Source: a virus. Taken from it: a stretch of 30,568 nucleotides of DNA. The notes below the pieces were generated by a model. That model was given only the letters and a program-made list of their open reading frames with translations. It did not search any database and was not told the origin of the DNA. Location of the stretch: IMG/VR virus record IMGVR_UViG_3300030101_003496, positions 1 to 30,568 of that record. One strand, 5' to 3'. Positions 17,710 to 25,853 of the stretch are shown here, piece by piece (position 1 is the first letter of the stretch; each line of letters begins with the position of its first letter). The translations under genes were made by a program, and so were the position numbers.

Positions 17710-18078
17710 TTAGAAGCCTACATCTGGCCCCGTGGGTTCGTCACGTTTGTCTGACAAAGAGCAAGACATGTAGTTTAGTCCTGTTTCTTTGGCTTGTTTA
17801 GTCCAAACAGCAACACGTCTGTTTCCAAATGGCCCCGAATAATCGGGATGCTTGTCGGTTTTCTTATCATTGTTTTGGTATAGCGTCCCGACTTTTTCAT
17901 AGAGGTCGATAATGTCTTTACCATCTCTGGTCGTGACCATAACAGCGGCCACCCGTTTTTTCTGTCCATTGTCATTGATCTCACCTGTTAGTATGACTCT
18001 GGTATTTGGTTCAGAGGAATCAGGTTTGTTGCGTGGTGGGAATAGTGCGCCACGATTAGTATCATCAAATTGCGTCAT
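17710..18078 (-). CDS. Conserved phage protein after ERF, possible ssDNA-associated protein
   Basis: This 122-residue protein contains GALFPPRNK near the start and NNDKKTDKHPDYSGPF, then RRVAVWTKQAKETGLNYMSCSLS at the end. The pattern NDKK.DKHPDY.G...VAVW.K....G..YMS.S is one I recall from small uncharacterised proteins that travel with phage recombination genes. The beta-rich composition and position behind an exonuclease and an annealing protein suggest a single-strand DNA-binding or recombination accessory role, but this is inference. It has a very strong ribosome binding site, AGAAGGAGATATACTATG, so high expression is likely. Confidence 0.65.
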   Translation of the reverse strand: MTQFDDTNRGALFPPRNKPDSSEPNTRVILTGEINDNGQKKRVAAVMVTTRDGKDIIDLYEKVGTLYQNNDKKTDKHPDYSGPFGNRRVAVWTKQAKETGLNYMSCSLSDKRDEPTGPDVGF

Positions 18079-18096
18079 AGTATATCTCCTTCTGTA

Positions 18097-18642
18097 CTAT
18101 TGTTGCGCCCAAGCATTTGGGTTTGATTGTGGTGTTTCTGGTTCTTTGGGTTGTTTGTCTGGCAATGTCTTGGCAAGGTTCTTCTTTCTACCATCCTGTT
18201 TTGCTTTTTCTTCTTTTGCATTGGAAAGATCGTCAGCATCATCATCAGGTGTTGGCAGTCCAAAGGCCGCACATAATCCATAGCGTTTAGCATATGTAAT
18301 ACCTGCACCATGCTTTTGTGGATTTGATCTATCCTTTTCTTGCACATGAATAGGTGTACGGCTCACTTGGCTTTCACCAGATTCATGCATCAATATGGTG
18401 CGTATGTAATTCACTTGCGGATTGTGATCTAGAAAATCAATCTCTTGTGTGAATGTAAGGCCAAATTGACAAGCACCACGAACAGTATCAATAACCTGAT
18501 TGATATCTGCATATGTACCCCAGACACCAGAAGCATTCTGTGATGCTGTTGGCCTGGTTTCATGGAAAGCAATCAAGGCTTTGACCAGTGTGTCAGGTTT
18601 TGATTTGGCAGTTGGTTTACGTTTGTCTTTCGTTTCCGTCAT
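18097..18642 (-). CDS. erf: ERF-family single-strand annealing protein
   Basis: This 181-residue protein is counted from the ATG preceded by AAGGAGAAACATAC; an upstream in-frame ATG at 18660 lacks a Shine-Dalgarno. The central part has the ERF pattern: WGTYADINQVIDTVRGA, then GLTFTQEI, a stretch with ILMHESGES, and HGAGITYAKRYGLCAAFGL before an acidic DDDADD segment. The G...TYA.RY.L....G signature is the strongest part. The C-terminal tail is low in complexity (Pro, Gln, Asn, Lys), as usual in SSAPs. It anneals complementary single strands made by the exonuclease encoded just upstream. Confidence 0.88.
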   Translation of the reverse strand: MTETKDKRKPTAKSKPDTLVKALIAFHETRPTASQNASGVWGTYADINQVIDTVRGACQFGLTFTQEIDFLDHNPQVNYIRTILMHESGESQVSRTPIHVQEKDRSNPQKHGAGITYAKRYGLCAAFGLPTPDDDADDLSNAKEEKAKQDGRKKNLAKTLPDKQPKEPETPQSNPNAWAQQ

Positions 18643-18671
18643 GTATGTTTCTCCTTTCATACTACAAACGA

Positions 18672-19454
18672 TTAGCTGGTTATGTATATTCGCTTTGCTC
18701 CTCTCTTGTCACGTTTGACTTCTAGAGCGTTGCAATGCACCTTACGTTCATTGTCAGCTACCAATGACTTCAGGTTTTTGGCGGCAGTTGCATTACGATC
18801 TGCCGCTTCTTTTGTTTCTATGTATTCGTGTGCCAGACTTACAAACTCATTGTCAGTGTTAGCATCACGGGCAACCATGTCATTGATTTTGATATAATCA
18901 ATGCTTGGCATGTCAGGAATATCTGGATTGACTGGTTCAATATTATCTGTCACAGACTGCCAGAAATGTTGAATGTGTTGGATCAATAGCCCTTGATACT
19001 CTTGGTCTGCATCTATCTTTACATAATCATGCTTTTGATTACCAAAGATGCACGACAGATACATGGATGATATGGCTGATATCTGCATGTAAAACTGTAG
19101 TTGGGGCATGTACCGATCAAGTTGTTTGGTCATGTTTGTTGTTTGGTTGGTATGTTTGCACTCCAAACCAATGCGTTGCCCATACTCTGTAAAGACACCA
19201 TCAAGCGTACCTCGACATGGAACACCATTCCACATCATGTTGAACACTTCTTGCTCTGATACCTCTACTTGTTTTTTCCTGGCAAACAGTTGCACATTGA
19301 ATGGCTCAGTGAATATGCCTAGTTGCACTGGCAATACATCAGACAAATCATCTGGTTCTTTGCGTCCTGTTTTCTCCATCCACAGTGAATATAAATCACC
19401 ATCGACAATTCGGACAGCATCACTGCCACCGATAAATCCAGTTCTATCTTGCAT
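18672..19454 (-). CDS. YqaJ-type (lambda exonuclease-like) PD-(D/E)XK exonuclease
   Basis: This 260-residue protein contains the core of the YqaJ/lambda exonuclease family: IGGSDA at 8-13, LGIFTEPF with Glu50, GTLDGVF with Asp85, GLECKH with Glu98 and Lys100, and MPQLQFYMQI with Gln118 and Gln120. It should degrade the 5' strand of double-stranded ends to produce 3' overhangs for the ERF protein next to it. Residues 200-250 are charged and helical. It has a strong ribosome binding site (GTAAAGGAG). The pair exonuclease-annealing protein is a standard two-component recombination module. Confidence 0.88.
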   Translation of the reverse strand: MQDRTGFIGGSDAVRIVDGDLYSLWMEKTGRKEPDDLSDVLPVQLGIFTEPFNVQLFARKKQVEVSEQEVFNMMWNGVPCRGTLDGVFTEYGQRIGLECKHTNQTTNMTKQLDRYMPQLQFYMQISAISSMYLSCIFGNQKHDYVKIDADQEYQGLLIQHIQHFWQSVTDNIEPVNPDIPDMPSIDYIKINDMVARDANTDNEFVSLAHEYIETKEAADRNATAAKNLKSLVADNERKVHCNALEVKRDKRGAKRIYITS

Positions 19455-19467
19455 TGTGAGTTCTCCT

Positions 19468-20001
19468 TTACTCGTTCTTTGTATCAGGTGTTTGCCCTGT
19501 TAACAACCTTTCTTTTGCTTTTTTTGGTATACGAATCAACATGTTACCAAGCGCGGCAGGTAGTTCTCCACTATCAATCATTGCTTGTGTTTCTGCGATA
19601 TGTGCATCACAGCTTTCAAGTGTGAATGGATTACCTGTTCGTTCCTCTATCTCTTTTTTCTTTGGGTTAGCAAGATGTCGATCAATAGACTCATGGTTAT
19701 GAACCCACTCAGCACTTACTTTGCCAGCAATCTTCGAGACAAGGTGTGGCGAAAACCAGACACGAAACTCTTGAGCAGAACAACAACGGTCAAAGACTTT
19801 ACCAACCAACAGAGAAAACGTTTCTTCATTTGAAATGCGATTATCCAAACTTTGATTCAATGTTTTTCTAAGTTGTCGATAATACTCTTGTTGTGAGTCC
19901 TTGTTATTACGAATATGTTTTGGACAATCATACAATGTTGCCATCTTTTGTATGAATAGCTTGTGTATGATCTGCTCACGTTGATGATGATTTAGTTCCA
20001 T
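19468..20001 (-). CDS. Unknown protein between DnaA-like domain and exonuclease
   Basis: This 177-residue soluble, helical and mildly basic protein starts MELNHHQREQIIHKLFIQK. No Walker motif, zinc site or nuclease signature is visible. Its start codon overlaps the end of the DnaA-domain gene (26 bases), so the two are translated together. In many phages the gene beside an initiator encodes a helicase loader or replisome-recruiting factor; that role is possible here but is not shown by sequence. I do not recognise a family. Confidence 0.7.
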   Translation of the reverse strand: MELNHHQREQIIHKLFIQKMATLYDCPKHIRNNKDSQQEYYRQLRKTLNQSLDNRISNEETFSLLVGKVFDRCCSAQEFRVWFSPHLVSKIAGKVSAEWVHNHESIDRHLANPKKKEIEERTGNPFTLESCDAHIAETQAMIDSGELPAALGNMLIRIPKKAKERLLTGQTPDTKNE

Positions 20002-20281
20002 TGTTTTCTTTCTTCATACGTTCTTTGTATTGTTTGATATTGTACATGACTGTTGTGTGATCACGCTCAATCATCTCACCAATCTCAGGTGTAGAAAATC
20101 CACGTTCCTGTAACATGAAACAAATTTTCTGTCGGGTTTCTATTACATGTGGATTGTCTTTACGTCTGCCATAGAAATCAAATGATGATACTTCTTCTTC
20201 ATCAAGAGTTTGTCTAATCACATCAGTCATTTGAAATTTACGATAACGTTTTTCTTCAGGTGTTTTTGGTCTGGTATTCAT
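19976..20281 (-). CDS. Stand-alone DnaA domain IV (DnaA-box-binding helix-turn-helix)
   Basis: This 101-residue protein is essentially only DnaA domain IV. Residues 37-55 (FYGRRKDNPHVIETRQKI) match the stretch that in bacterial DnaA reads SKRR...VARPRQ. Residues 62-78 hold STPEIGEMIERDHTTV, equal to the diagnostic S.PEIG...GRDHTTV signature that contacts TTATNCACA boxes. There is no AAA+ ATPase domain. It could bind DnaA boxes as a replication-origin factor, a competitor of host DnaA, or a transcription regulator. Three perfect boxes lie at 24348-24366 and 24771-24779. It overlaps both neighbouring genes by 26 bases, so expression is tightly coupled. Confidence 0.85.
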   Translation of the reverse strand: MNTRPKTPEEKRYRKFQMTDVIRQTLDEEEVSSFDFYGRRKDNPHVIETRQKICFMLQERGFSTPEIGEMIERDHTTVMYNIKQYKERMKKENNGTKSSST

Positions 20282-20585
20282 TGAGTATTTCCTCTACTAG
20301 TTCTCCTGGGACTATTAGTAACCATTTACGATCTGTCCCACGTTTATAGATTGCTACATCTCTATTTTCTAAGACTGTAAATGGTGATGGAAAGCTAGAT
20401 TGCTTTCTGTATTTGACCTCGGCAATAAGTTGTCGACCATCAAAATCTAATACCAAATCACCAGAGTATTCTCCACCGAGAGAGCCAGATAATGGCTGTC
20501 GTTTTGTGCGAACACCTAATGAGTTGAATAGTTTTTCAAAAAACTTTTCATGATATGTACCTTTGGCTTTGCTTTTACTTACCAT
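20256..20585 (-). CDS. Hjc-like PD-(D/E)XK nuclease, putative Holliday junction resolvase
   Basis: This is 109 residues when started at the ATG behind AAGGAAACAACACCC; the longer frame to 20630 lacks a ribosome site and overlaps the upstream gene. The compact fold shows Glu13 in TYHEKFFEKLF, Asp43 in EYSGDLVLDF, and Glu56-x-Lys58 in LIAEVKYRK, the usual spacing of archaeal-type Hjc and phage resolvase-like nucleases. It may resolve recombination intermediates or debranch DNA before packaging. A role as a restriction-type nuclease cannot be excluded. It overlaps its two neighbours. Confidence 0.72.
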   Translation of the reverse strand: MVSKSKAKGTYHEKFFEKLFNSLGVRTKRQPLSGSLGGEYSGDLVLDFDGRQLIAEVKYRKQSSFPSPFTVLENRDVAIYKRGTDRKWLLIVPGELVEEILNEYQTKNT

Positions 20586-20749
20586 GGGTGTTGTTTCCTT
20601 ACAGGCTTTGCTTGGCTTTTGATAAAGCATTCACGACACATAACTGTGTGTTCTTCTGGTTCGATGTTTGTAAGCAATGCAACCCAATCAGATTCTTTGA
20701 GTTTGCATACAGAACAGGTAATAAAGAATTGCTTATCTTTAGAACGCAT
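20579..20749 (-). CDS. Small zinc-ribbon protein
   Basis: This 56-residue protein starts at MRSKDKQFF; the longer open frame to 20878 lies inside the methyltransferase gene and is rejected. It carries CSVC (residues 12-15) and CREC (38-41), a pair of CxxC knuckles about 22 residues apart, so a single zinc ribbon is likely. The C-terminus is basic (KSQAKPVRKQHPW). Function unknown; small zinc proteins in phage early regions often bind nucleic acid or host RNA polymerase. It overlaps the methyltransferase stop by 11 bases and the next gene by 7. Confidence 0.65.
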   Translation of the reverse strand: MRSKDKQFFITCSVCKLKESDWVALLTNIEPEEHTVMCRECFIKSQAKPVRKQHPW

Positions 20750-21383
20750 GATGTATGTACCAACCCCATTGTTGGGCCATTGCATCAGCAATACCTTTGT
20801 AGAATCTACTGCGTATTTTCCAACGATCAGCACTTGGTGGTGCATGATGTACTTCTGGTCTAGCAGTTGACCCATCAAGACACCCTGTAGGTTTGAGTTT
20901 TGGCAGGTTTCGTAACCAAAGACAGGTGCGTTTCTTTACATTGTCTTTGCCATCATCGGCTGTTTCAAACTGCCATGGCTGGATAGACTGTGCTTGTGGT
21001 TCATAGTTTCTTATGCGCTCTTTGGCATACTTGTGCATCACTGGATTCTCAACAGCAATATGTGGAATATCTACATTCCATATGTCAGAGAATAGATCAG
21101 CACCTTCATCAAGTTCTTGCCACATCTCATCCAGTGTTTTGCCTGGTGGTGGCTTTGAAAGCCATCGAACACCAGAGTTGCATAACCTTGTACATGGTGG
21201 GTGTGCTACGAATAACATATCCCAATCATGATCAACCATTACATCACGCACATCAGCAACAAAGTGTTTGTTAGTTGGAATATCACTGGGTAACACATCA
21301 CATGACCATGCATCATGCCCAGCACGAATGAATGCTTCACGAACAATGCCAGATGTTTCACATCCAATTAGTATTTTTGCCAT
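20739..21383 (-). CDS. DNA cytosine-C5 methyltransferase-like protein
   Basis: This 214-residue protein starts with an SAM-binding motif I-like opening (ILIGCETSGIVREAF). It then has VADVRD, HPPCTRLCNSG with Cys64 (equivalent to the catalytic PC motif IV), and AVENPVMHKYAK with Glu112-Asn113 (motif VI EN), followed by KKRTCLWLRNLP (motif VIII-like). It is shorter than full C5 methyltransferases and has no clear target-recognition domain, so specificity may be unusual or the enzyme may act differently. The likely role is protecting phage DNA from host restriction. Its ATG overlaps the preceding stop (TGATG). Confidence 0.75.
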   Translation of the reverse strand: MAKILIGCETSGIVREAFIRAGHDAWSCDVLPSDIPTNKHFVADVRDVMVDHDWDMLFVAHPPCTRLCNSGVRWLSKPPPGKTLDEMWQELDEGADLFSDIWNVDIPHIAVENPVMHKYAKERIRNYEPQAQSIQPWQFETADDGKDNVKKRTCLWLRNLPKLKPTGCLDGSTARPEVHHAPPSADRWKIRSRFYKGIADAMAQQWGWYIHHAF

Positions 21384-21544
21384 CAGTCAATGTCCTTATG
21401 TTCAATGCCCAACACTTCTTGAATATGAAACATAGCATTGCATACCTCATTCCACTGTTCGTCATACATAAGATCGCCTTCTGGTATGCAATCTTCACGA
21501 TAAGTATGAAGCGCATCCCAAACTACTTTTAGTAAATCATTCAT
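21383..21544 (-). CDS. Hypothetical 53-residue acidic protein
   Basis: This small ORF fills the gap between two larger genes. It begins MNDLLKVVWDALHTYR, continues DCIPEGDLMYDEQWNEV, and ends with a short helix ending EHKDID. The ATG is preceded by AAAGG about 10 bases upstream; the stop overlaps the methyltransferase start by one base (TGATG). Both facts support it as a real gene. It is acidic with no known motif; small acidic early proteins sometimes inhibit host DNA-binding proteins, but nothing here proves it. Confidence 0.65.
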   Translation of the reverse strand: MNDLLKVVWDALHTYREDCIPEGDLMYDEQWNEVCNAMFHIQEVLGIEHKDID

Positions 21545-21547
21545 TGG

Positions 21548-21778
21548 TTAGACCTTTATAATTCCAAATCTTGCTGTTGGATCTTTGCTCAATTGTTCTT
21601 GATTGCGTTTTAGACGTTCTTCTTTTGTCAAAGGATTTTGTTTTTCTTCTAATGAATATTTTTTTTCTGGTTGTTGTTTTTCTCTGACAAGTTTGCCCGA
21701 ATATGGAATGCCTGGATTATCAAACCGTTTATCAATTGTACCGTTTATCAAGTCTTTGAATCCTCTATTATTAGCCAT
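21548..21778 (-). CDS. Hypothetical charged protein
   Basis: This 76-residue, highly charged and probably largely disordered protein has KLVREKQQPEKKYSLEEK and NPLTKEERLKRNQEQLSKD. Its ATG follows the previous stop directly (TAA ATG), with the strong GGAGG Shine-Dalgarno lying inside the end of the upstream gene. No family recognised. Confidence 0.65.
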   Translation of the reverse strand: MANNRGFKDLINGTIDKRFDNPGIPYSGKLVREKQQPEKKYSLEEKQNPLTKEERLKRNQEQLSKDPTARFGIIKV

Positions 21779-22102
21779 TTAGTCCTCCTTTGGTTGGAAT
21801 GGGACAACACTGTCATTGTTGTCATTTCTGTATTGTGATCGGCTTTTGTGTAGTTTCATTCCAAAATCCATCAGATGTTGTTTGAGATGATACTGTATGA
21901 TTGCAGTAACACTGCCACCATCATCATCCATTTTGTCTAGAACTGTAGTTGCAGATGCATATACCAATGCAAGTATTGATGGTGTTGTTGGCATTAGTTT
22001 GTTGACAATTTCATCAACAACAAATGGTTTGTTTGGGTCAGCAGTAATCTCACGCAGATGATTAGCTAACTCTACTTCAAGATCTTCAAGTGTTGGTGTC
22101 AT
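21779..22102 (-). CDS. Hypothetical protein
   Basis: This 107-residue protein is mainly helical: TLEDLEVELANHLREITAD, then a hydrophobic helix (SILALVYASATTVLDKM) and an acidic, Asn/Asp-rich end. The ribosome binding site is strong (AAGGAGTAAATTCAA before ATG), and it overlaps the upstream gene by 17 bases. I do not recognise a family; there is no metal or nucleotide site to see. Confidence 0.68.
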   Translation of the reverse strand: MTPTLEDLEVELANHLREITADPNKPFVVDEIVNKLMPTTPSILALVYASATTVLDKMDDDGGSVTAIIQYHLKQHLMDFGMKLHKSRSQYRNDNNDSVVPFQPKED

Positions 22103-22352
22103 TTGAATTTACTCCTTCTTCTAATTTCCAGACCTGAAAAGTTTTAGGATTGATATGTTGTCGACTGACTAAACGATATTGTTTTTTGTTTTGTCTATTA
22201 CGCAAAGAGTTATGAACCCGTGCTTGAAGAAGTTCAGTATTACTCATAATTATGCAATCACCATGTTTCATTTGATCTAACGTTTCTTTTAATTCTGCAT
22301 GTTTGCCTCTGTATTTTGGAAACGGTATTTGTTTGATTTCATATTTAGTCAT
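22086..22352 (-). CDS. Hypothetical protein
   Basis: This is 88 residues from the ATG behind AGAAAGGAAATCAA; the longer frame to 22388 would start inside a GC-rich hairpin and has no ribosome site. The N-terminal half has KHAELKETLDQMKHGDCIIMSN and the middle ARVHNSLRNRQNKKQYRLVSRQ, a basic beta-like stretch often seen in small DNA-binding or host-takeover proteins. Function unknown. Confidence 0.65.
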   Translation of the reverse strand: MTKYEIKQIPFPKYRGKHAELKETLDQMKHGDCIIMSNTELLQARVHNSLRNRQNKKQYRLVSRQHINPKTFQVWKLEEGVNSNDTNT

Positions 22353-22377
22353 TTGATTTCCTTTCTGTTGGGCGATT

Positions 22378-22421
22378 GACCACAGCACCCGCCCTCACAC
22401 GGGCGGGGCGGGGCTGTGGAC
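22378..22421 (-). promoter_or_regulatory. GC-rich two-part hairpin between ardC and next gene
   Basis: Outer stem CCACAGC (22380-22386) with GCTGTGG (22413-22419); inner stem CCCGCCC (22388-22394) with GGGCGGG (22401-22407), loop TCACAC. It fills the 76-base gap after the ardC stop. It has no T tract; it shares an ACCCGCC arm with hairpins at 23754-23785 and 25333-25365. The right arm leads into TGTGGACAA (22415-22423), one base off a DnaA box. Confidence 0.6.
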
Positions 22422-22428
22422 AACGCCA

Positions 22429-23328
22429 TTACTCTGCGGCAGTTGCCATCAGGCTCTTTCGTTTCTCACCTTCAAGGTATGCAACAGCTTTTCCAGCCGC
22501 AGTCATAGCCCTGGTCAAAGCGTTTGGTTCATCCTTAAGCCCTGTCAACCAAGTGTTGATATACTTGGCATGGTCTGGTGTTGGTTGCGCTTCTATACCA
22601 AGTTGCACAGCAAGAATCACAGAGCCGAGTTCGGCAATGAGTTCTTCATATGCATAGTCGCTGGAAAACTTGCCCTTGGCTTTTAGTCTATTGAGTCTGC
22701 TTTTATGGCCTGTCCAATGGACATGCTCATGCAAGAGAGTTGAATAGAAACTTTGTGTTGCTGTTGCGTCAGGTGTATCGACAAAGACATCAGCTTTTGG
22801 CATGTGTATTGTATCGGTAGCAGGTACATAACAAGCACTTGACCCACCATACTGAACATTAGCATTTACCAAATTGATGAATGCTTCACAGTCTTGATGC
22901 TGTGTTACTAGATTCTTTTTGGCCGGTGGTGTTGATTCAACATAATCGAGAAGTTGAGCTTCGTTCCATACTGGATATGTTTTTGTGTATGCGTATGCTT
23001 TTTCTGTTTCTGGATTGAAGCCCTTGTCAAACTTTACGACATACCCACCATTTCCTTTTGGTATAGCAGAGGCACGACCAACCTTTTTCCATTGTGTGTA
23101 AGTTGCCCAGCGATTGCTAGTAAATCCTCGAGCATCTGCTATTGCAATAAGATTAAACCAATTGATACCAGCATATTGATATCCAGTTGTTGCATTGATT
23201 GGTGATTGTAGATTGGATGAACCCAACCAAGGCTTCACCCAATTTTTGCCATGATCCTCCAAGTTTTTGACAAAACGTGTCAGGATATTTTCAAGAATAT
23301 CTTTATGCTTCATCGCATTCTCTTTCAT
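22429..23328 (-). CDS. ardC: ArdC-like antirestriction protein with metalloprotease domain
   Basis: This protein is 299 residues from the first ATG, or 294 from the ATG at 23313; both are plausible and neither has a textbook ribosome site. The N-terminal half has the ssDNA-binding ArdC pattern: NWVKPW, GYQYAGINWFNL, FTSNRWATYTQWKKVGR and a late PVWNEAQL. The C-terminal half is the MPTase domain with HEHVHWTGH (His200, Glu201, His204) and a downstream EELIAE glutamate as likely third ligand. ArdC proteins protect incoming DNA from restriction, shown mainly for conjugative plasmids; here it would act early in infection. It overlaps the end of the upstream gene. Confidence 0.88.
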   Translation of the reverse strand: MKENAMKHKDILENILTRFVKNLEDHGKNWVKPWLGSSNLQSPINATTGYQYAGINWFNLIAIADARGFTSNRWATYTQWKKVGRASAIPKGNGGYVVKFDKGFNPETEKAYAYTKTYPVWNEAQLLDYVESTPPAKKNLVTQHQDCEAFINLVNANVQYGGSSACYVPATDTIHMPKADVFVDTPDATATQSFYSTLLHEHVHWTGHKSRLNRLKAKGKFSSDYAYEELIAELGSVILAVQLGIEAQPTPDHAKYINTWLTGLKDEPNALTRAMTAAGKAVAYLEGEKRKSLMATAAE

Positions 23329-23551
23329 AAGTACCCAAGGCTTTCTTTATGACATGGTATTGTTTTGCCATTTGGACTGTTTGTTCAGCTTCTTTGATAT
23401 GATGCAAGCATCGGTCAAGTGGTATGACTCCTGTAAATGGTTCATACATTGTGTTTTCTACAGATTCTCGTGACCACTTGAGATGCATTTCTAGATCTTC
23501 AAGTTGTTTTTTGATTGGGTGGTCTGAGCCTGGACGAGATAATATAGACAT
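23303..23551 (-). CDS. Hypothetical helical protein upstream of ardC
   Basis: This 82-residue, helical protein contains KKQLEDLEMHLKWSRESVEN and CLHHIKEAEQTVQMAKQY, suggesting an antiparallel helical hairpin. Its ATG overlaps the preceding stop by one base (TAATG) and is served by AAAGGAGAC about 6 bases upstream. Its end overlaps ardC. No family recognised. Confidence 0.65.
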   Translation of the reverse strand: MSILSRPGSDHPIKKQLEDLEMHLKWSRESVENTMYEPFTGVIPLDRCLHHIKEAEQTVQMAKQYHVIKKALGTYERECDEA

Positions 23552-23724
23552 TAGTTGTCTCCTTTTGCTTCAAGATATTCGTCAGTTGATTCATATTGGT
23601 CGATAATATTTTGGCTCCACAAAGAGGAACATTCATCGTTTTTTATATGAAGTTCTTCTTTCAGTTTCGCATTTTGTTTTTTCAATTCTTGATTTTCAAC
23701 AATCAAGTTTTTGATATCGCTCAT
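23551..23724 (-). CDS. Small coiled-coil protein
   Basis: This 57-residue protein starts MSDIKNLIVENQELKKQN and continues KLKEELHIKND, a clear leucine/asparagine heptad coiled coil of about 28 residues, then an acidic end with STDEYLEAKGDN. It has a strong AAGTAAAGGAG Shine-Dalgarno element. The stop overlaps the next start (TAATG). It may dimerise; function unknown. Confidence 0.68.
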   Translation of the reverse strand: MSDIKNLIVENQELKKQNAKLKEELHIKNDECSSLWSQNIIDQYESTDEYLEAKGDN

Positions 23725-23753
23725 GGTTTTCTCCTTTACTTATGAACGAGGGC

Positions 23754-23785
23754 TGCACCCGCCTCACCCCAGCTGGGCGGGTGCA
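23754..23785 (-). promoter_or_regulatory. GC-rich 10-bp intercistronic hairpin
   Basis: TGCACCCGCC (23754-23763) and GGCGGGTGCA (23776-23785) are exact inverted repeats; the loop contains the palindrome CCCAGCTGGG overlapping the right arm. It stands between two minus-strand genes in AT-rich surroundings, without a T tract. It shares the ACCCGCC arm with two other hairpins. Confidence 0.65.
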
Positions 23786-23796
23786 ACCTGAGTGAA

Positions 23797-23964
23797 TTAT
23801 TCTGTTGGAAATTCTTTTATAACTGTTGGTTCATTCATATTGTCTTTCCAATGGTCGAAAGTTTCGATGGGTCTACCGTCTTGATATTCAGCATAATCTT
23901 CTGGCTCTAACTCCACATCGAAAACAACTTGCACTTGCAAGGTCATTGGTTTGTATTTTTTCAT
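23797..23964 (-). CDS. Hypothetical 55-residue acidic protein
   Basis: The start is chosen at the ATG behind AAAAGGAGAATGCATTC, giving MKKYKPMTLQVQVVFDVEL; the longer frame to 24012 has no ribosome site. The sequence is a short beta strand pair followed by an acidic part (EPEDYAEYQDG) and WKDNMNEP. No family recognised. Confidence 0.62.
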   Translation of the reverse strand: MKKYKPMTLQVQVVFDVELEPEDYAEYQDGRPIETFDHWKDNMNEPTVIKEFPTE

Positions 23965-24008
23965 GAATGCATTCTCCTTTTGGATTTCAATTCTATAGTC
24001 CTGGCTCA

Positions 24009-24218
24009 TCATTCATCTCTTTCTAATAATTCTTGTTTTAAAATGTGGCCATTGCCGTGCTTTGGGTAATAAGTAGTGGACATAATTTCTTCATCTGGAT
24101 CACAACCAGCATCAGCAATTTCTTCATCATTTAAACAAATTTTTCGAGTAATAAATCCGCTTTGCCTGTCTCGTACATCAACAATGGCAAAGCAATTTTT
24201 GAAGCATGTTTCTACCAT
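24009..24218 (-). CDS. Hypothetical 69-residue protein with several cysteines
   Basis: The ATG at 24218 overlaps the stop of the upstream membrane peptide (TAATG) and follows AAGGAAAAATTTA. The protein has Cys at positions 5, 9, 24 and 35 (ETCFKNCF, RKICLND, DAGCDPDE) and an acidic middle. The cysteine spacing is irregular, so a zinc site is possible but not clear. The longer frame that includes the upstream region is a shadow of the membrane peptide in another frame. Confidence 0.62.
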   Translation of the reverse strand: MVETCFKNCFAIVDVRDRQSGFITRKICLNDEEIADAGCDPDEEIMSTTYYPKHGNGHILKQELLERDE

Positions 24219-24328
24219 TAAATTTTTCCTTCCATTGCAATTGAAATAATCCAGAACGATAGATAGATAGCCGCCAGAGTTCCAAATAGAACAAAGGCTT
24301 CTAAAATATTCCAAAGTAATTTTTTCAT
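24218..24328 (-). CDS. 36-residue single-span membrane peptide
   Basis: Short ORF reading MKKLLWNILEAFVLFGTLAA and onward to SFWIISIAMEGKI. A positive N-terminus (KK) is followed by about 24 hydrophobic residues, so it is a single transmembrane peptide. It has an excellent ribosome site (AAGTAAAGGAG) and its stop overlaps the next ATG, both strong signs that it is real. It would be the first gene transcribed from the promoter at 24356-24384. Possible roles are inhibition of a host membrane protein or superinfection exclusion; none is shown. Confidence 0.68.
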   Translation of the reverse strand: MKKLLWNILEAFVLFGTLAAIYLSFWIISIAMEGKI

Positions 24329-24347
24329 GGTAAGTAATCTCCTTTAC

Positions 24348-24366
24348 TTATACACATTGTGCATAA
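24348..24366. promoter_or_regulatory. Two inverted perfect DnaA boxes
   Basis: TTATACACA (24348-24356) and TGTGCATAA (24358-24366) each match the DnaA box consensus TTATNCACA, on opposite strands, with one base between them, giving a near-palindrome TTATACACATTGTGCATAA. The site overlaps the -10 region of the minus-strand promoter, so a bound protein would affect transcription. Confidence 0.72.
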
Positions 24367-24384
24367 CTAATCTTAGCTTGTCAA
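24356..24384 (-). promoter_or_regulatory. Sigma-70-like promoter of the main minus-strand operon
   Basis: On the minus strand, TTGACA (24384-24379, perfect -35), a 17-base spacer and CACAAT (24361-24356, 4 of 6 to TATAAT). The start would be about 20 bases before the AAGTAAAGGAG of the membrane-peptide gene. A hairpin (24391-24407) and a terminator for the upstream gene lie just upstream. Confidence 0.5.
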
Positions 24385-24388
24385 TAAG

Positions 24389-24412
24389 GTCTTGGGCGTA
24401 GCCCAAGTCAAT
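24389..24412 (-). repeat. Palindromic boundary repeat, left copy
   Basis: CTTGGGC-GTA-GCCCAAG (24391-24407) with flanks. On the minus strand the 24 bases match 25839-25863 (+) except for one inserted G. The two copies bracket the GC-rich island. Confidence 0.75.
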
Positions 24413-24422
24413 TTATCCGAAC

Positions 24423-24458
24423 AAAAAAAGGGAAGCAGGGCGTTGGCCCCGCTTCCCT
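24423..24458 (-). terminator. Intrinsic terminator after the 143-residue gene
   Basis: On the minus strand AGGGAAGC (24458-24451) pairs with GCTTCCCT (24436-24429), with an inner GGGC/GCCC pairing (a single mismatch between) and loop CAAC, followed by 7 T. It starts 5 bases after the stop codon of the gene. This makes the upstream gene a separate transcription unit. Confidence 0.88.
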
Positions 24459-24463
24459 GAGTG

Positions 24464-24895
24464 TTAGTCGGACAACGTGTCCCGACATAGGATTGCACCA
24501 TCACGGTACCTTGCGGCTCCGCACATCTGCATCTCCATGCGCTCGTGCCACTGAGCCGCGCGTTCGCGCCGACTGTCGTAGACAGTCGTATTAGGCTCAT
24601 CGACTGACTCGCGCTGTAGCTTCTCGCGGATTGCAGTCTCCTCAAAGACTGCGTTATCCAGTCTTTCTTGAGACTCTGCAACCTTTGTTACCTGAAACTC
24701 ATAATCGCGGTCTGCGCGCCATACGAGGTTCTCAGCCATGCGCTCACGCGCATACTTGAGTTCATCGCACTGTGGATAACAAACGTCGATGAGGTTACGC
24801 ATAAACTCTGCACAGGCCTCCACCTCTGCTGAGAACTCAGCTTCGTTGATAGCCTTAGTTTCTTTAACTGCTTTAGTTGCTTGCTTCTTAGACAT
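24464..24895 (-). CDS. Unknown protein in GC-rich island
   Basis: This 143-residue, charged, mainly helical protein begins MSKKQATKAVKETKAINEAE, a Lys/Ala/Glu-rich start; the middle is rich in Glu and Arg (YARERMAENLVWRADRDYEF) and the end contains RRERAAQWHERMEMQMCGAARYRDG. Five cysteines are present without clear CxxC pairs. The base composition is unlike the neighbours (39 of 60 G or C in 24541-24600). It has AGTAAAGGAG before the ATG and a dedicated terminator, so it is its own operon, transcribed from the divergent control region. It contains a perfect DnaA box at 24771. I do not recognise the family. Confidence 0.72.
   Translation of the reverse strand: MSKKQATKAVKETKAINEAEFSAEVEACAEFMRNLIDVCYPQCDELKYARERMAENLVWRADRDYEFQVTKVAESQERLDNAVFEETAIREKLQRESVDEPNTTVYDSRRERAAQWHERMEMQMCGAARYRDGAILCRDTLSD
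24771..24779 (-). promoter_or_regulatory. Perfect DnaA box inside coding region
   Basis: TGTGGATAA, the reverse complement of the strong DnaA box TTATCCACA. It lies 405 bases from the inverted pair at 24348-24366. I found no other perfect TTATNCACA match in the window by eye. Confidence 0.65.
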
Positions 24896-24942
24896 GATAT
24901 AACTCCTTTACTTCTAAGATTGCTGTGTAGCTTCTTCTCGCT

Positions 24943-24981
24943 ACAATACCACCGGTATCACGCGTTTTCGGGCAGTCAAAG
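24943..24981 (-). promoter_or_regulatory. Left arm of divergent promoter/operator repeat
   Basis: Read on the minus strand, the 28 bases 24981-24954 (starting CTTTGACT, then CCCGAAAACG, ending GTGATACC) match 25127-25154 on the plus strand at 25 of 28 positions. GTATTGT follows 4 bases later (24949-24943). This arm points towards the 143-residue gene. The TTGACT to TATTGT distance (25 bases) is too long for a normal sigma-70 promoter, so an activator or operator role is possible. Confidence 0.6.
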
Positions 24982-25010
24982 CGAGCCGACCCCCTTGGGC
25001 GGCGAGTTCA

Positions 25011-25125
25011 GCAACTATTTGACAGCATCGCGGAGAGTATCAAGACACTCGCTCGGCGACATAGAGTGTCGCCTAGCCCTGGTAGTTTGGGCAGATGTGC
25101 CACACACACGATAACCAATAGTTGC
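25011..25125. repeat. Inner inverted repeat and stem-loops of the control region
   Basis: GCAACTATT (25011-25019) and AATAGTTGC (25117-25125) are exact inverted repeats that extend the outer 28-bp repeat. Between them are two overlapping stems: GGCGACA-TAGAG-TGTCGCC (25055-25073) and GACACTC (25044-25050) with GAGTGTC (25064-25070). The two stems share bases and exclude each other. The left half has about 29 extra bases between the inner and outer elements compared with the right half. Confidence 0.6.
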
Positions 25126-25126
25126 A

Positions 25127-25167
25127 CTTTGGCTTCCCGAAAACGTGTGATACCCTGCATGTATTGT
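25127..25167 (+). promoter_or_regulatory. Right arm of divergent promoter/operator repeat
   Basis: The plus-strand counterpart of 24981-24943: CTTTGGCT, CCCGAAAACG, GTGATACC, then GTATTGT 6 bases later (25161-25167). It points towards terS, about 300 bases downstream. The conservation of the element on both sides of a common centre suggests one regulator controls both directions. Confidence 0.6.
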
Positions 25168-25180
25168 GAGAGAGAGAATA

Positions 25181-25246
25181 GGGCTTTGCATGCCCCCACG
25201 CCCACAGCCCAAGGCGAGGACGTTTGGGGGCATAAGCAGAAAGCCC
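25181..25246 (+). promoter_or_regulatory. Long stem-loop in terS leader
   Basis: GGGCTTT (25181-25187) pairs with AAAGCCC (25240-25246), and ATGCCCCCA (25190-25198) pairs with TGGGGGCAT (25225-25233), 16 perfect pairs in two blocks around a 26-base loop. Confidence 0.6.
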
Positions 25247-25250
25247 GTAA

Positions 25251-25291
25251 GACGATATTGACCGCGCCGCCTTCGGCGCGCCAATAGCGTC
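25251..25291 (+). promoter_or_regulatory. Strong GC-rich stem-loop in terS leader
   Basis: CGCGCCG-CCTT-CGGCGCG (25263-25280) is extended outside by GACGATATTG (25251-25260) and CAATAGCGTC (25282-25291) with one mismatch, giving 16 pairs in a 41-base element. No T tract follows, so it is not a simple terminator. Confidence 0.65.
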
Positions 25292-25332
25292 ACGACCATA
25301 TCGTACCCGTACTCAGTACTTTGTTAGTGGCA

Positions 25333-25392
25333 ACCCGCCTGTACACGCCCCTCGACGGGGCGGGTATGGGCATTCTTGCAACACTAGAATGC
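25333..25392 (+). promoter_or_regulatory. Two further stem-loops in terS leader
   Basis: ACCCGCC (25333-25339) with GGCGGGT (25359-25365), alternatively CGCCCC with GGGGCG inside it; then GCATTCT (25370-25376) with AGAATGC (25386-25392). The first shares its arms with the hairpins at 22388 and 23754. Confidence 0.55.
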
Positions 25393-25463
25393 ATAATTGC
25401 AACTTGATTTTACTTGACGAACCCTCTTAAACTCCGGAGGTATGCACCAGCATACTGAGGATT

Positions 25464-25853
25464 ATGTGTTCGATGGATATCACAAATACAGAGCGTAAAC
25501 TAACCAAGAGGCAGACTGCACTAGTAGACTACCTCGTAGCAAATGGTGGGACTGTGAAGGATGCCGCGCATGCGGTGGGATATGCTGATGGTGAGAGTGG
25601 GAGAGTGAGTGCTAGCAAGGCTCTCGGGCAATCGCATGTGCAAGCGTATATGATGGATAAGATGAGACAAGAGATGGGTGTACGTGCTACGTTAGCCCTC
25701 TCGACAGTCACGAAGCTAGCTGGCACTGCGAAGAGCGAGTATGTTCAGCTGGAAGCTAGTAAGGATCTCCTAGATAGGGCAGGTTTCAAGGCTCCTGATA
25801 AACACATGCACCTACATGCTGGTGACATACGAGTAGAGATTGACTTGGGCTGA
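25464..25853 (+). CDS. terS: Terminase small subunit
   Basis: This 129-residue protein has the common TerS pattern: LTKRQTALVDYLVANGGTVKDAAHAVGYAD near the N-terminus (helix-turn-helix that binds the packaging site), then a central helical oligomerisation region and SEYVQLEASKDLLDRAGFKAPDK, which is a recurrent end motif of small terminase subunits. It selects phage DNA and stimulates TerL. The start is the ATG at 25464 behind TGAGGATT; a small stem (25440-25455) lies between this and an upstream GGAGG. The stop codon lies inside the right palindromic boundary repeat. Base content is higher in GC than in most genes (30 of 60 in 25501-25560). terL is 2.5 kb further downstream. Confidence 0.82.
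   Translation: MCSMDITNTERKLTKRQTALVDYLVANGGTVKDAAHAVGYADGESGRVSASKALGQSHVQAYMMDKMRQEMGVRATLALSTVTKLAGTAKSEYVQLEASKDLLDRAGFKAPDKHMHLHAGDIRVEIDLG

Follow-up and report, generated by a model that had tools for sequence, protein, structure and literature searches.

Analysing the whole 30,568-nucleotide stretch of the viral record IMGVR_UViG_3300030101_003496 (hereafter the window), we identified an inverted pair of perfect DnaA boxes lying on the early promoter of a phage operon that itself encodes a stand-alone DnaA domain IV. With moderate confidence, we read the pair as a conserved early-promoter operator, which the phage's own domain IV protein would bind to limit early transcription. This reading is based on three observations: box pairs recur at the early promoters of relatives that carry the gene, they are absent from relatives without it, and their layout tracks the protein clade. 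Judged from its sequence, this conserved site has a credible role, which would represent a new form of DnaA-box promoter control in phages. Its two elements are:

19976..20281 (-): stand-alone DnaA domain IV protein, 101 aa, identified by Pfam, PDB sequence profile and predicted fold
24348..24366 (no strand assigned): inverted perfect DnaA-box pair, TTATACACA-T-TGTGCATAA, proposed operator

The 101-aa protein matches the Pfam family Bac_DnaA_C (PF08299) with 34.8 bits, for a curated cut-off of 31.5, and no other DnaA domain, lacking both the AAA+ ATPase domain III and domain I. No second copy of the domain was found elsewhere in the record. The Pfam result confirms a previous model-made description of this DNA (hereafter the sequence-only reading), which had proposed a 101-residue protein consisting of domain IV without ATPase. 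Comparison with PDB sequence profiles also identified the protein as DnaA domain IV (1j1v), and its AlphaFold model (pLDDT 87.5) superposes on 3pvp_A (TM 0.68/0.72, rmsd 1.1) and 1j1v (TM 0.60/0.64), the top fold matches (3pvp, 8btg and 1j1v) being DnaA in every case. In E. coli DnaA, the bases are contacted by residues 399, 423, 432-435 and 438-439 (PMC5043019). The window protein keeps contacts 423 and 432-435, with the helix-5 contacts R, D, H and T and the helix-4 P of DnaA retained; positions 438-439 differ, and R399, the basic-loop contact of E. coli, is without a clear counterpart. The protein is a putative reader of the DnaA box TTATNCACA. Because it has neither an AAA+ domain nor domain I, the protein could not melt an origin as DnaA does, and would retain box recognition alone.

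A consensus scan of both strands detected exactly three perfect TTATNCACA sites in the window, at 24348 (+), 24358 (-) and 24771 (-), the same three that the sequence-only reading had listed. Its chance estimate of about one match in 30 kb proved too low: dinucleotide shuffles gave an expectation of 2.26 +/- 1.42 and reached at least three sites in 39 of 100 cases, so that three sites represent no excess. One-mismatch boxes were not enriched either (39 observed vs 48.6 expected), and box-count enrichment was rejected as evidence, neither count being above chance. The improbable feature is the pairing alone, since no exact pair appeared in shuffles of 625 kb. The pair forms a 19-bp near-palindrome, reading TTATGCACA-A-TGTGTATAA on the minus strand. 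The proposal that all three boxes, spread over 432 bp, belong to one system held for the pair at 24348-24366 and failed for the box at 24771-24779, which was dropped as incidental because it is part of the coding sequence of ORF 24464-24895 and the relatives L002 (TTTATCCGAAG) and L138 do not keep it. A decoy titrating host DnaA off the host origin, another role suggested in the sequence-only reading, found no support and appears barely conceivable: the number of boxes would presumably rise with phage copies, but each genome holds a single conserved pair and boxes are not generally enriched.

The pair is embedded in the control region of a leftward operon, whose main features are:

24429..24458 (-): intrinsic terminator between ORF 24464-24895 and the early promoter, with a stem of 13 bp and then a run of T
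24356..24384 (-): sigma70-like early promoter for the leftward operon, TTGACA-N17-CACAAT, 10/12 matches
24218..24328 (-): early operon gene 1, 36-aa hydrophobic peptide MKKLLWNILEAFVLFGTLAAIYLSFWIISIAMEGKI, kept in L002, L003 and L154
22429..23328 (-): ArdC-like anti-restriction protein (ArdcN + MPTase-PolyVal)
20256..20630 (-): Holliday-junction-resolvase-like protein; its position just upstream of the DnaA-domain gene is conserved
19468..20001 (-): 177-aa helical protein, conserved partner whose start overlaps the DnaA-domain gene
18672..19454 (-): YqaJ exonuclease, farther down the operon
18097..18660 (-): ERF annealing protein, farther down the operon
17710..18078 (-): SSB-like protein, farther down the operon (17710..19454 with YqaJ and ERF)

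The TTGACA-N17-CACAAT site is the top promoter-like site across 19900-25470. It sits directly after the strong 13-bp-stem terminator, and the box pair covers its -10, in agreement with the overlap between boxes and operon promoter that had been claimed. The same promoter was found in L002, L003, L138 and L154. The genes follow in the order 36-aa peptide, ArdC-like, methyltransferase-like, resolvase-like, DnaA-domain, 177-aa, YqaJ, ERF and SSB-like, and they probably form one early transcript from the peptide through the SSB-like gene, since all lie on the same strand with no other good promoter or terminator between them. The domain-IV-only protein, whose gene lies ~4 kb farther along the operon, would occupy both boxes side by side and, placed over the -10, would block or tune RNA polymerase; as it accumulates it would limit early transcription, hence its own synthesis. 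A 19-bp near-palindrome on a -10 is also a typical repressor site, and could be the ordinary palindromic operator of another phage repressor with an accidental likeness to DnaA boxes. We consider this very improbable, since the half-sites remain DnaA-like while their orientation and spacing vary among subfamilies, and letter-permuted motifs fail to reproduce the pair counts given below.

The region preceding the promoter has peculiarities of its own. ORF 24464-24895 (-) encodes 143 aa with no Pfam or PHROG match and has the strong terminator at its end. Between this ORF and TerS lies a GC-rich, apparently noncoding segment (24905-25420, -), a 331-nt part of which folds at -141.8 kcal/mol vs -107.3 in shuffles (z -6.4). 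Aligned with L002 and L138, it shows a mean column identity of ~88%; Rfam gave no match, and the segment is a candidate large structured RNA. In some relatives, the slot corresponding to 24420-25400 holds another GC-rich sequence and another small ORF, as if its contents beside the early promoter were swapped as whole cassettes. The swapped slots are:

L003, 4750-5390
L010, 450-1080
L154

The relatives identified through the terminase comprise variously labelled contigs from marine MAGs, together with the Pelagibacter phage EXVC031P. Across relatives, boxes are kept at the early promoter in four arrangements: inverted with a gap of 1 or 3, outward with a gap of 0, and tandem every 12 bp. The close relatives L002, L003 and L154 keep the pair with one degenerate box (TTGTACACA or TTATACAGA); on the minus strand the pair reads TTATGCACA-A-TGTGTACAA in L002 and L003 and TTATGCACA-A-TCTGTATAA in L154. 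The promoter of L138, L151 and L157 bears ACATACACA-GGG-TGTGGATAA. More distant contigs of the same terminase group hold tandem 12-bp boxes, and two hold outward pairs:

L016, tandem: TGGGGATAA-CCT-CGTGTATAA
L041, tandem: TTATCCCCT-ATA-TTATACACA
L167, tandem: TGTGTATAA-TAA-TGGGTATAA
L171, tandem: TGGGTATAA-CTT-TGGGTATAA
L017, tandem: TGGGTATAA-CTA-TGTGCAAAG
L015, tandem: TGTGTGTAT-TGT-TGTGTATAT
L052, tandem: three consecutive boxes
L166, outward, gap 0: TGTGTATAA-TTGTACACA
L175, outward, gap 0: TGTGCATAA-TTATTCACA

The promoters of L015, L016, L017 and L041 were first chosen by promoter score alone, and those of L052, L166, L167, L171 and L175 came from box searches. In L154, L157 and L175 the DnaA-domain gene was not seen, these contigs being short on that side.

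This recurrence was quantified on contigs anchored by TerS. In the 24 that carry the DnaA-domain gene, 5 pairs had at most one mismatch in total (0.05 in shuffles) and 17 pairs, spread over 14 contigs, had at most two (1.4 in shuffles). The comparison group consisted of 19 TerS-group members without a recognised DnaA-domain gene, of which 6 kb or more was searched in each case, and yielded 0 pairs (vs 0.1) and 4 pairs (vs 2.75) at the same thresholds. The difference between contigs with and without the gene gave Fisher p values of 0.044 (at most one mismatch) and 0.015 (at most two), kinship being ignored. None of 300 letter-permuted motifs reached 5 or 17 pairs, and among 125 distinct DnaA-domain contigs 6 pairs were observed for 0.25 expected. 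Furthermore, 6 of 8 subfamily promoters, picked by promoter score (7 top-ranked, 1 second), contain a box with one mismatch or none, for a null mean of 0.64 and a maximum of 4 in 4000 trials with the -35/-10 hexamers fixed. DnaA boxes overlapping a promoter are thus conserved beyond chance. The sequence-only reading had asked for co-conservation of boxes and gene in relatives and had listed an autoregulator among its options: both are supported by pairs at the early promoter of many gene carriers (5 vs 0.05) and by their absence (0) from non-carriers. The association could also reflect shared descent, because carriers and non-carriers probably have different early modules as a whole.

Some carriers depart from this pattern. 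The L235/L237 subclade, whose protein is 36-38% identical, has the promoter without a canonical box, its arms resembling TGTGTAGTA..CTACCACA, and no canonical boxes were found in the distant DnaA-domain contigs L023, L053, L199 and L202. The early promoters of L235, L237 and L159, which are DnaA-domain phages or near relatives, carry TGTG...CACA-like arms in place of a canonical box; their recognition sequence may have changed. In L051, a promoter located 189-230 bases upstream of TerS contains TGTTTATAA twice, at a distance of 12 bp, reproducing the tandem DnaA-box layout with an altered core (TTATAAACA); this contig is too short to judge the presence of the gene.

Box layout follows protein clade. 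In the protein tree, the window, L003, L138, L235 and L237 form one clade (support 100/99), apart from L015, L016, L017, L041, L052, L164, L166, L167, L171 and E. coli DnaA; the finer branching order is unsure because several branches are long. The inverted layout belongs to the window/L138 clade, the tandem 12-bp layout to L015, L016, L017, L041, L052, L164, L167 and L171, and the outward one to L166. L164 calls for caution about this link, as it combines a very divergent DnaA-domain protein with the same promoter boxes as L016.

The same data bear on the possibility that host DnaA binds the boxes, tying the early promoter to the host DnaA level or cell-cycle state, with the phage protein as a competitor. 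Tandem boxes every 12 bp resemble the arrays bound by full-length DnaA, and the box fits the general bacterial DnaA consensus. L164, keeping the boxes of L016 despite its very different phage protein, points in the same direction. However, pairs are absent from relatives without the gene and the layout tracks the phage protein clade, although host and clade may be confounded. On balance, we regard control by host DnaA as unlikely. Both versions have precedents, since bacterial DnaA represses the transcription of its own gene, from a promoter bearing a DnaA box, and host DnaA acts at the phage lambda ori and on the expression of lambda replication proteins (PMC8203912). Binding by the phage protein, which we favour, has to accommodate several points against it: the same box is read by host DnaA, L235 and L237 lack a canonical box, R399 has no clear equivalent and positions 438-439 differ, L164 joins a very divergent protein to the boxes of L016, and shared descent may explain the association with the gene.

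The 177-aa neighbour raises the question of replication. The order resolvase, DnaA domain, 177-aa protein was conserved in 12 of the 13 contigs examined, usually followed by the YqaJ exonuclease, L166 being different. A helicase loader was suspected from the position of the gene before any structure search. The model of the 177-aa protein (pLDDT 82.5) ranked lambda P (9oa1) first among 675 aligned chains, with Z 8.4 and an rmsd of 3.3 over 90 residues, a Z under about 13 being weak for helical models. Sequence homology to lambda P was rejected, as Pfam, PHROGs, PDB sequences and profile-profile comparison all returned nothing. Foldseek gave no confident PDB match, and the sole strong match in BFVD was an unnamed viral protein. 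The predicted fold leaves a lambda P-like helicase loader as a hypothesis, and together with the domain IV protein this neighbour may have an additional role in replication.

The pair could accordingly be part of a replication origin, marked by the DnaA-domain protein and supplied with host helicase by the 177-aa protein, as a split initiator of the lambda O/P kind. The overlapping conserved gene order, the fold match and the lack of polymerase or helicase among the scanned proteins are consistent with it. There are, however, two boxes only, placed on the -10; most relatives have no origin-marking array of DnaA boxes near the gene, and the fold likeness to P is weak and unaccompanied by sequence similarity. 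We hold this origin function to be distinctly unlikely. A combined possibility, also doubtful, bears on the minimal DnaA-like initiator suggested in the sequence-only reading: a bare DnaA domain IV and a P-like loader may make up the initiator, the pair serving as both operator and initiation site, so that a phage with no polymerase of its own would capture the host replisome without the DnaA ATPase.

Other candidate signs of an origin were discarded. A cluster within the 177-aa gene (19601-19970), with four one-mismatch boxes in the window and L003 and three in L004, was taken as chance or local because other subfamilies lack it. GC skew, which the sequence-only reading had recommended computing, follows the change of coding strand and provides no origin evidence. 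Its statement that the phage has no polymerase holds for the window proteins scanned but need not extend to the whole genome, since this linear IMG/VR record begins with a truncated head-tail connector gene (profile match beginning at position 89 of 489).

Stand-alone Bac_DnaA_C domains without ATPase also occur in many unrelated phage contigs, several of them adjoining replication-like genes; in L239, L253, L319, L345 and others, HTH_36 or other replication-like proteins are frequent neighbours of the domain. No description of the function or sites of these phage domains was found in the literature searched. A conserved candidate site on the gene's own operon provides a concrete, testable role for such a domain, and the relatives, in which protein clade and box layout vary together, amount to a natural experiment in the promoter arrangement of a monomeric box reader. 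Should the 177-aa neighbour prove to load helicase, the two activities of DnaA, reading boxes and loading helicase, would be separable into two small proteins. Phage lambda O-P is comparable in that a DNA-binding gene overlaps the next gene, whose predicted fold weakly resembles P, whereas the window has DnaA domain IV in place of O, the search for DnaA-box arrays revealed no iterons, and the 177-aa sequence does not resemble P. The initiators of iteron plasmids bind origin repeats and also inverted half-repeats at their own promoter. The window shares with them inverted copies, and its relatives tandem copies, of a short box at the promoter driving the presumed binder's operon, but it has a DnaA-type fold instead of a Rep fold and no iteron origin was found in it. 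The autorepression of bacterial dnaA through the box at its own promoter (PMC8203912) is alike in that a boxed promoter precedes the gene for a DnaA-type DNA-binding domain; the phage arrangement differs from it by a protein consisting of domain IV only, by a close pair of boxes placed over the -10, and by the phage early operon that this promoter drives.
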